Shown here piece by piece: positions 45,400 to 62,746 of a stretch of 64,000 nucleotides of DNA. The notes under the pieces were generated by a model that had not been told where the DNA came from, searched no databases, and saw only the letters and a program-made list of their open reading frames with translations. Position numbers and translations under genes: made by a program. Within the stretch, counting starts at the first letter, position 1; the number at the start of each line of letters is the position of its first letter. Origin of the DNA: Parvularcula dongshanensis (GTDB lineage Bacteria; Pseudomonadota; Alphaproteobacteria; Caulobacterales; Parvularculaceae); the NCBI RefSeq assembly GCF_014199615.1, contig NZ_JACHOB010000001.1:248001-312000 (forward strand), in the 5' to 3' direction.

Positions 45400-45415
45400 T
45401 TAATGCACCGTTAAC
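45400..45415 (+). promoter_or_regulatory. Perfect CtrA-type box (TTAA-N7-TTAAC)
   Basis: TTAA at 45400-45403, seven bases, then TTAAC at 45411-45415. This is the full consensus for the cell-cycle regulator CtrA. It lies 85 bp upstream of the coiled-coil membrane protein gene, in a suitable promoter position, and 34 bp after the stop of the antiporter gene. Confidence 0.7.
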
Positions 45416-60327: not shown

Positions 60328-61821
60328 TCAACCGCGCTCGAACTCGTCGAAGATCGCGGTGATCCGGTCGCCGAAGACCGCGTCGGTCTCGGCCAGGATC
60401 TCGGCCGCCTTGACCGAGTGCATCACCGTGGTGTGGTCGCGGTTGATCATCGCGCCGATCGCGGTGAGCGGCGTGTCGGTCAGCTTGCGCGCGGCGAGGC
60501 AGAAGGCGTGCCGCGCACGGACGATGGGCTGCTTGCGCGCGCGCCCCGCGACCTCTTCCTTGGTCAGGCCGAAGGTGCGCACGGTGAAATCGAAGACGTC
60601 TTCGACCGTGACCGCCTGGCGACGGTGCGAGAGGTGCTCGGCCAGAAGCTTGCGCACGCGCTCGTCGGAGAGGGCGGCGGGGCCTTCACGCCCGCCTTCG
60701 GCTTCGATCGCGACCTGGAGGAGGGAAAGCATCCCCTCGAGTTCGCGCACCGAGTCCTCGCAGCGACGCGCGATGAGGTCGATGTGGCGCTGGGGCACGG
60801 GCAGCCCCGTCTGCATCTCGAAGAGGGCCGCGGCCTGGCGCGCGACGCGCAGTCGCAGGTCGTAGTCGGGCTTGTCGATCGAGACGCAGAGGCCGCCTGC
60901 GAGACGGTCGGCGAGGCGTTGGGAGATGCCGGTCTCGGACAGGCGCGCTGGCGGGAGGGCGCCCGCGACGAGCACGCGCTTGCCGGCGCCGCGCAGGCGG
61001 TCGATCAGGCAGTCGAGCTCTTCCTGGGTGCGCTTGCGGCCACGCAGGAGCTGGATGTCGTCGACGAGAAGGACGTCGGTCGACTGCAGGAAGCTGCGAA
61101 GCTCCTTGACCGACTTCGAGATGAAGGCCTCCGACACGTCGGTCATCAGGCTGTCATAGGTGAGGTAGAGGACGTTGTCCGTCGGACGGCGGCGCAGCCA
61201 CTCCTGCGCGGCGGCGTTCAGGAGGTGCGTCTTGCCGCGCCCCGAGGCGCCGTGAAGGTAGGTGAGCGCGGCGCCCGTGCCGTCGAGCATCTTGGTGACG
61301 GCGTGCCGGGCAAGGCGGTTGGTGTCGTTGACGCAGAAGCGCTCCAGCGTCATCGCGCTGTGGAACTGGCTCGGCAGCTCGCTGTCGAAGGGCAGGCCCT
61401 CGGCGCGGTCTCTTTCTGGTCTTCCGGCGCTCGTGCTCATCTCGGCGCTTTCCTCGGCGCGCAGCCCCTTACGGAAGGGCGATGCCTTGAGTCTAGACGC
61501 GGCGCGGGCCGGGGCCAGCGCGGCGGGCCGTTCGGCCTCGACCTCGATCCTGCGGACCTGTGCCAGGTCCTGAACGCCCTTGACCGACAAGCGATTGACG
61601 GGGCCGCAGGCCTCCGACCAGACCTCGCGCAGGCCCGGCGCGAAGCGCTGCGAGATCAGGCTCGCGGAGAAGCGCGTCGGCGCGTGCAGCACGACGTTCG
61701 AAGACGACGCCTCCGCAAGGCCTAGCGTCTCGAAGTAGCTCGAGTAGACGGCGGCACCGAAGCGGTCGCGCAGCTCTGACTTGAAGGTGTCGAAGCGTTC
61801 GAGGTCGGAAGGCGTTGGCAT
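60328..61821 (-). CDS. dnaA: Chromosomal replication initiator DnaA
   Basis: 497 residues. Domain I covers about 1-80 and a low-complexity linker 90-140. The AAA+ domain has Walker A GASGRGKT (191-198) and Walker B VLLVDDIQLL (Asp254-255). Domain IV ends AMINRDHTTVMHSVK, the DnaA-box-binding signature. It is noticeably divergent: the usual GGVGLGKTH and sensor II/arginine-finger regions differ (GISQRLADRLAGG). The position beside rpsT and mutM fits dnaA. The 658 bp upstream carry dense regulatory motifs. Confidence 0.92.
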   Translation of the reverse strand: MPTPSDLERFDTFKSELRDRFGAAVYSSYFETLGLAEASSSNVVLHAPTRFSASLISQRFAPGLREVWSEACGPVNRLSVKGVQDLAQVRRIEVEAERPAALAPARAASRLKASPFRKGLRAEESAEMSTSAGRPERDRAEGLPFDSELPSQFHSAMTLERFCVNDTNRLARHAVTKMLDGTGAALTYLHGASGRGKTHLLNAAAQEWLRRRPTDNVLYLTYDSLMTDVSEAFISKSVKELRSFLQSTDVLLVDDIQLLRGRKRTQEELDCLIDRLRGAGKRVLVAGALPPARLSETGISQRLADRLAGGLCVSIDKPDYDLRLRVARQAAALFEMQTGLPVPQRHIDLIARRCEDSVRELEGMLSLLQVAIEAEGGREGPAALSDERVRKLLAEHLSHRRQAVTVEDVFDFTVRTFGLTKEEVAGRARKQPIVRARHAFCLAARKLTDTPLTAIGAMINRDHTTVMHSVKAAEILAETDAVFGDRITAIFDEFERG

Positions 61822-62160
61822 CGGCGTTCACTCGGGCATGGGCTCGCCATTCCCCCGCAGCGCGTTTCGCGCGGGAGCCGGACGGCGTGTCTTACGGATG
61901 AAGCGCCGGTGACGGCGCGTTAACGACGGTGGCAGGGTCGCCGTAAATAGCGGGTTAAGCGGCCCCGAAACTCGAGGGGGGCGCCGCGCCGTTCACCGGC
62001 TCGTGTCTCCGAACTTCTGCCCAAAGAGACGCCATTGCCGTTCCCCTTCCCTCTCGCGTTTCGATGACCGCGCCTTGCCCGGCGGTGTCTTCGTACCGTC
62101 TGAACCTGACCTGAAAGAGAGTATTCCTCAGGCCCCAGCATGACAAGGTGACGACAGGTT

Positions 62161-62393
62161 GAGTCTCAGGAATCATTCGCGCCTCGATCACCCGTTCTGC
62201 GCGAAGAGGCCATGAATCAAGAGCTTAATGAGGCGTTAACTGGACTGCCGAACTGCGGAAGGGTTTTCAACAGGGGTTGGAATCATTCACCCGCACGAAG
62301 AGTCTGATTTTGTTCTATAATAGGGATTTCGGCGCGCTGGATGCGCCACGCCGCAACATGTAGCGGGGACTCGTCTGGACTCACACAAGACTC
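62161..62393. promoter_or_regulatory. Cluster of eight GANTC methylation sites
   Basis: GANTC begins at 62161, 62170, 62214, 62280, 62300, 62368, 62378 and 62389. At about 67% G+C one is expected per roughly 330 bp, so less than one would be expected here. CcrM methylates this site in alphaproteobacteria, and in Caulobacter methylation state affects dnaA transcription. Confidence 0.6.
62225..62240 (+). promoter_or_regulatory. Perfect CtrA-type box upstream of dnaA
   Basis: TTAA at 62225-62228, seven bases (TGAGGCG), TTAAC at 62236-62240. In Caulobacter, such boxes lie in the replication origin, where CtrA blocks initiation. Confidence 0.65.
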
Positions 62394-62423
62394 GCCAGAA
62401 ACGCGCATACTCCCTGTAATGAC

Positions 62424-62456
62424 GAAGGCCCGCCCCGGGGTCCGGGACGGGCCTTC
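62424..62456 (-). terminator. rpsT terminator
   Basis: A 15-base arm (62424-62438) pairs with 62442-62456 with a single wobble across a 3-base loop. It lies 24 bp after the rpsT stop on the minus strand; no clear T-run follows. Confidence 0.7.
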
Positions 62457-62479
62457 TTCAAGGGGATGGACCGGTCGGC

Positions 62480-62746
62480 TTAGGCGCCGAGCGCCTTCAC
62501 CCGGCTCGACAGGCGCGAGACCTTGCGGGCGGCGGTGTTCTTGGAGACGACGCCGTTGGAGACGGCGCGGAACATCTCGGACTCTGCGGTGCGGAGCGCG
62601 GTACGGGCGGCGTCGTGATCGCCGGCGGCGATCGCCTCTTCGACGTAGCGCAGGTAAGTGCGGACGCGGCTGCGACGGGCCTTGTTGACCGCCGTGCGCC
62701 GCTCGATCTTGCGGACCATCTTCTGGGCCGAAGTCGTGTTGGCCAT
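62480..62746 (-). CDS. rpsT: 30S ribosomal protein S20
   Basis: 88 residues, the normal size: [33 protein letters not shown] and a C-terminal [21 protein letters not shown]. Very basic and helical, it binds 16S rRNA. It is upstream of dnaA on the same strand, as is usual in this class. Confidence 0.97.

Follow-up and report, generated by a model that had tools for sequence, protein, structure and literature searches.

A dense array of GANTC sites between rpsT and dnaA of Parvularcula dongshanensis, a candidate CcrM-responsive control region

Eight GANTC sites of the CcrM type were found within 233 bp upstream of dnaA in Parvularcula dongshanensis (62161..62393, no strand assigned). With a probability of about two in three, this array is a CcrM-responsive upstream regulatory region of dnaA and a dense target of the methylase. 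This reading, which is drawn from sequence comparisons, is supported by the density and place of the sites, their conservation in a sister species, a probably older site shared by most of the genus, and the presence of ccrM, gcrA and ctrA in the genome. The window, which is the whole 64-kb stretch of DNA that was analysed, corresponds to positions 248001-312000 of contig C1 (genome 3.13 Mb, 16 contigs), and the array lies at C1:310.2-310.4 kb. The GANTC sites start at 62161, 62170, 62214, 62280, 62300, 62368, 62378 and 62389, so that the number given in the earlier note on this DNA was confirmed by count. All eight are inside a 658-bp gap between two genes, namely rpsT, the upstream neighbour of dnaA, which encodes ribosomal protein S20 (62480..62746, reverse strand), and dnaA itself, which encodes a protein of 497 aa (60328..61821, reverse strand). 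The array was assessed by count, by rank in the sampled genome, by simulation and by conservation in Parvularcula oceani.

The density of GANTC was determined in the window and in 33 stretches of 20 kb, together 724 kb or 23% of the genome. This sample contained 799 GANTC (1.10 per kb), which corresponds to 0.25 expected per 233 bp. The expected number was 0.66 from the base composition of the window and 0.88 from the composition of the array stretch itself. The previous estimate of more than ten times the expected density was therefore about right by base composition (9-12x), and the excess was approximately 30x by sampled genome density. In 5,000 Markov simulations trained on the stretch itself, the mean was 1.54 GANTC and the maximum was 7. 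A GANTC count along the lines suggested in the earlier note was run on the 724 kb, and the array ranked first as the densest GANTC cluster per 233 bp in this 23% of the genome. The runner-up within the window had four sites per 233 bp. The second rank in the 724 kb was taken by the hemE intergenic region with five, in a stretch that had been chosen deliberately and not at random, and four per 233 bp were reached twice in the remainder of the sample. GANTC was also the commonest of 24 pentanucleotides of the same form in the array stretch, with eight occurrences against four for the next. No helical phasing of the GANTC sites was detected in three species (p 0.48, 0.13 and 0.23).

These numbers bear on the possibility that the array has no function specific to dnaA and is the tail of a general intergenic enrichment of GANTC in CcrM bacteria. 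In CcrM orders, intergenic GANTC are on average more than 1.5-fold enriched (PMC3973325; this and the other papers are cited from excerpts), and most congeners of P. dongshanensis have no array, as would be expected under this explanation. The density of the array is far above 1.5-fold, however, its rank is the highest in the sample, and its sites were selectively conserved in P. oceani, as described below. At the average sampled density, a Poisson model predicts approximately 4e-5 such clusters genome-wide, a figure that ignores the known intergenic excess. We consider a mere intergenic tail to be improbable.

P. oceani was the nearest named relative found, with a DnaA that is 84% identical. 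The earlier note had proposed an alignment of the rpsT-dnaA region across relatives, and this showed that P. oceani has 10 GANTC in 233 bp at the same place, six of which are common to both species and four of which are its own. Six of the eight sites of P. dongshanensis were kept, with agreement among three alignment settings, in aligned sequence that is 57% identical; this count comes from a single pair of species, and the GANTC sites may themselves have guided the alignment. As a background, 19 of the 165 five-base frames not overlapping GANTC were kept (Fisher p ~1e-4; the frames overlap one another). The kept share was 16.7% when all non-GANTC frames were taken, and for control motifs it was 4 of 22 occurrences. 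One of the kept sites was altered only at the free middle base, from GATTC here to GAATC in P. oceani.

Some of the conserved blocks exceed GANTC, for example GAGTCttgtg-GAGTCcag and GATTCcaac, and GGAATCATTC is repeated, both copies being exact at 62169-62178 and 62279-62288 as previously described. This might indicate that a DNA-binding regulator, which could be GcrA, uses the GANTC sites as operator cores, and that methylation of the array as such is irrelevant. However, the flanks of the eight sites differ, with no longer motif common to them by eye, and the sites added in P. oceani carry other flanks. In addition, the GcrA-type extended motif YGAKTCG is absent from the rpsT-dnaA gap of this species and occurs once in that of P. 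oceani. An operator array of this type is possible but unlikely.

One of the eight sites is probably older than the others. In seven of ten genus members, TGATTC was present 66-74 bp upstream of a TTGTCA-like element (exact TTGTCA in six of the seven and TTGCCA in the seventh). The corresponding site in P. dongshanensis is at 62214..62218 (no strand assigned; TTGATTC in dnaA orientation), and its near-fixed distance to the TTGTCA-like element suggests that it is probably the ancestral GANTC. As one site is retained at a near-fixed distance in seven of the ten genus members, the array may have grown around this older single site.

The distribution of the array was examined in 33 complete rpsT-dnaA gaps (23 + 10). 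The highest numbers of GANTC per 233 bp were those of P. oceani (10), P. dongshanensis (8) and the genomes G003 and G028 (5 each), and the rest had 0-4. In seven additional rows, where rpsT was out of view, the number was 0-5. Four loci were left out of this count, as L001 repeats the window, L006 repeats the P. oceani locus L002, L004 is the hemE region and L003 is a distant Phycisphaerales locus. No DnaA match was obtained for G024, and no CtrA match for G012 at the E-value set. Seven of the ten genus members had no array (0-3 GANTC per 233 bp). In a DnaA tree of 12 rows, P. dongshanensis and P. oceani were sisters (support 88/94) and G003, with five sites in 233 bp, was nested with G009 (two) and G005 (one), which suggests two gains of the array, or losses, within the genus. 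After a correction for composition, which covered the 23 complete gaps of the first survey, GANTC was not in excess upstream of dnaA: 10 were seen against 14.9 expected in the seven genus members that have no array, and 23 against 29.1 in 13 other relatives. The array thus appears to be a feature of a few species. For all ten genus members together, 36 GANTC were seen and 25.0 expected, and two of 23 control motifs were as much or more enriched. A family-wide enrichment of GANTC upstream of dnaA was apparent relative to the density in neighbouring sequence, but it was gone after the composition correction and was rejected.

The earlier note had also considered that the array region could be, or belong to, the origin of chromosome replication. 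The dense GANTC sites, a single CtrA box, a degenerate DnaA-like element, a content of 62.5% AT over 40 bp and the intergenic position adjoining dnaA are all concordant with an origin. The replication origin is, however, probably situated about 260 kb from the array, at hemE, where it was assigned by synteny, parS and relatives. The hemE gene is at C1:572.8-573.9 kb, approximately 263 kb from the array; hemE and COG1806 together span C1:572.8-575.1 kb. The neighbours of hemE are mnmE, mnmG, rsmG and rho, and a PpsR/COG1806 homologue is divergent from it. Of three parS-like sites located at C1:565,904-567,393, within about 8 kb of hemE/COG1806, two were exact and the third had a single mismatch; a control pattern had 0 matches. 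The hemE/COG1806 region and the parS-like sites are thus some 256-264 kb from the array on the same contig. A COG1806 homologue adjoined hemE in 25 of the 25 genomes searched, one of which has hemE split over two contigs. The located Caulobacter origin is the hemE-COG1806 gap (PMC1914354), in agreement with the previous remark that an origin at dnaA is not usually described for this lineage.

GC skew had been put forward as a check on an origin at dnaA. Along the largest contig of P. dongshanensis (18 stretches) the skew was too weak for origin placement. A two-arm GC-skew model was fitted to the closed congener genomes G004 and G006, with 20 stretches each and one stretch per 145-154 kb; in both genomes some 600-660 kb separate dnaA from hemE. 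The best score was obtained with the origin at hemE in both G004 (0.41, against 0.25 at dnaA) and G006 (0.76, against 0.43 at dnaA), and at this sampling step of about 150 kb the values for dnaA were below the permutation 95% levels of 0.29 and 0.58, respectively. The rpsT-dnaA gap contained no consensus DnaA box, neither TTATNCACA nor [TC][TCG][AG]TCCACA, and one TTTTCAACA. An origin of the Cori type lies between hemE and COG1806 and has several DnaA boxes and several CtrA sites, whereas the array lies between rpsT and dnaA, in a gap with one full CtrA box. An origin at dnaA was rejected on the hemE/parS location, the skew of the congeners and the missing DnaA boxes, and it is very improbable that the array is any part of one. 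The hemE gap of this genome is also without consensus DnaA boxes and full CtrA boxes. In the hemE-COG1806 gaps of 25 genomes, which are their presumed origins, GANTC was found at approximately 2x the composition expectation (80 against 41.1). Nine GANTC in about 346 bp of this gap were present in two genomes that belong to the same other genus and for this reason are not independent.

In dnaA orientation, the order of the elements in the rpsT-dnaA gap is the array, the CtrA box, TTGTCA-17-TACTCT and a leader ORF. A perfect CtrA box had been reported, and TTAATGAGGCGTTAAC (62225..62240, forward strand) is an exact match to TTAA-N7-TTAAC. Across the genome this pattern was found at 12 places, which gave 16 strand matches, compared with 1 for the reversed pattern. 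A degenerate TTAA-N7-TAAA is present near the corresponding place in P. oceani (alignment read by eye), and the rpsT-dnaA gaps of the remaining nine genus members yielded no full CtrA box. At 45400-45415 of the window there is another exact CtrA box, TTAATGCACCGTTAAC, where both strands match, one base apart. The degenerate DnaA-box-like element GTTTTCAACAGG (62263..62274, forward strand) was exact at the place assigned to it before; in dnaA orientation the element inside the array is TGTTGAAAA. Five congeners have TGTGGAAAA or TGTGGATAA 413-462 bp upstream of dnaA, at a distance similar to that of GTTTTCAACAGG.

The putative dnaA promoter is TTGTCA-17-TACTCT (62118..62146, reverse strand), proposed from its recurrence in the genus, where exact TTGTCA is present in six of ten members. 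It starts 14 nt downstream of the last GANTC in dnaA orientation, with all eight sites upstream and none between its hexamers. A strict scan of 61700-62550 for sigma-70 promoters and terminators made no call and returned no promoter-like pair, TTGTCA-17-TACTCT included. An AT-rich TATAAT stretch had been described previously; the TATAAT is present in the raw sequence, but the strict scan gave no promoter-like pair that would include it, and the aligned stretch of P. oceani is AT-rich without TATAAT.

A short leader ORF of 26 aa with a Shine-Dalgarno-like sequence (61955..62035, reverse strand) is present in the presumed dnaA mRNA leader. ORFs of this leader type, with a Shine-Dalgarno-like sequence and a start 200-300 nt upstream of dnaA, occurred in nine of ten genus members and in eight of 13 other relatives, and simulation predicted about 10-13% in each group. 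The leader peptides were dissimilar among relatives by eye, and therefore the translation of the leader as such, and not the peptide, may be what counts. In Caulobacter, dnaA carries a regulatory leader of 155 nt (PMC4489657). Four congeners (G003, G005, G009 and G001) share a GGCACGGGCAGGTGCC element located between their putative promoter and the leader ORF, and folds of this region were computed without a control. A search of Rfam produced one match only, far below the gathering score.

The genome encodes GcrA, CtrA and a CcrM-like protein of 357 aa with a RAMA domain, the gene for which is beside mutY. This protein matched the CcrM model with an E-value of 3.5e-183 and 608 bits, which is lower than the curated cut-off of 830. 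Two properties of a CcrM-regulated promoter, GANTC in the promoter region and ccrM in the genome, are present. The 500 bp upstream of gcrA and of ccrM contain one GANTC each. The 500 bp upstream of ctrA have zero GANTC in this genome, whereas one to seven are present there in 22 of a set of 24 genomes that includes it. A trade-off in GANTC number between the ctrA and dnaA upstream regions was considered for the ten genus members but not shown (rank correlation -0.40, p 0.26).

If the array is a CcrM-responsive region of dnaA, CcrM would methylate the eight GANTC, and a replication fork from the origin at hemE would leave all eight hemimethylated together as it passes dnaA. The hemimethylated state would persist until the synthesis of CcrM late in the cycle, and the methylation state would alter dnaA transcription. 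CtrA bound at 62225-62240 might act as a second input to dnaA, and many sites instead of one could strengthen or prolong the response or reduce its noise. The alternative offered by the earlier note, a dnaA promoter timed by CcrM and CtrA, is in keeping with this scheme as far as the conservation in P. oceani, the recurrent promoter-like element and the presence of ccrM, gcrA and ctrA suggest; the CtrA box has been kept only in part in P. oceani.

For Caulobacter, transcription of dnaA is reported to change with the methylation state of GANTC, to a small but significant extent (PMC3973325; also PMC4287350), and hemimethylation has been modelled to halve this transcription (PMC8865702). According to PMC3885167, which cites Cheng and Keiler 2009, the activity of the Caulobacter dnaA promoter was not significantly changed when its putative site was mutated. 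Counts of GANTC upstream of cell-cycle genes are given in PMC2877005, which, in the excerpt cited, drew no conclusion about control. A far-reaching and doubtful extension would be that the lineage evolved, independently of Dam and SeqA, a dnaA control region packed with GANTC, besides an origin rich in them, and that this control region is read by a putative protein recognising clustered hemimethylated GANTC. In this case, dnaA would be silent from the passage of the fork until CcrM appears, as an alphaproteobacterial counterpart of sequestration, and the array would have been gained at least twice in the genus.

The literature searched, which included few subscription papers, contained no report of a chromosomal dnaA promoter with a GANTC array, and this is no proof of novelty. 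The control of dnaA by GANTC in alphaproteobacteria is unsettled in the excerpts cited, as one promoter site in Caulobacter has a small effect or none. Species with 8-10 sites beside congeners with 0-3 constitute a natural experiment, which could help to settle whether methylation controls dnaA. It would also show whether different methylases converge on dense marks at the origin and the initiator gene.

Several known systems can be compared with the array. The dnaA gene of Caulobacter crescentus likewise has a GANTC-bearing promoter region, as known from the literature rather than from its sequence, but with one putative site (PMC3885167) compared to the eight found here; dnaA of P. dongshanensis is about 263 kb from hemE. 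In Caulobacterales the promoter of ctrA, likewise a master cell-cycle gene, can hold as many as six GANTC within 300 bp (PMC8116508), but this is another gene, and the ctrA of P. dongshanensis has none in the upstream region analysed. The repABC origins are described as GANTC-rich (PMC6090056). One of them, ori2 of Agrobacterium tumefaciens, has several GANTC at both the initiator promoter and the origin, and effects of some of these sites have been tested (PMC11514494). This system differs in having a plasmid-type RepC initiator and three sites per region, and not dnaA. In E. coli, the dnaA promoter region is kept hemimethylated with the help of SeqA (PMC5835720). The enzyme, site and binding protein are Dam, GATC and SeqA there, whereas here they would be CcrM and GANTC, with 0 matches to PF03925 (SeqA) in the genome; among 14 control genomes E. 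coli alone matched. Dam is also described as active throughout the cycle, and CcrM only in predivisional cells (PMC6090056). Of the features of a sequestered promoter of the E. coli type, the dense adenine-methylase sites are nevertheless present, as GANTC and not GATC. The origin is another dense place in E. coli, and five GANTC were found in the hemE gap here. By analogy, the array would act as the E. coli dnaA promoter does, which it closely resembles in site number and place, with nine GATC in 225 bp there (PMC5835720) and eight GANTC in 233 bp here.
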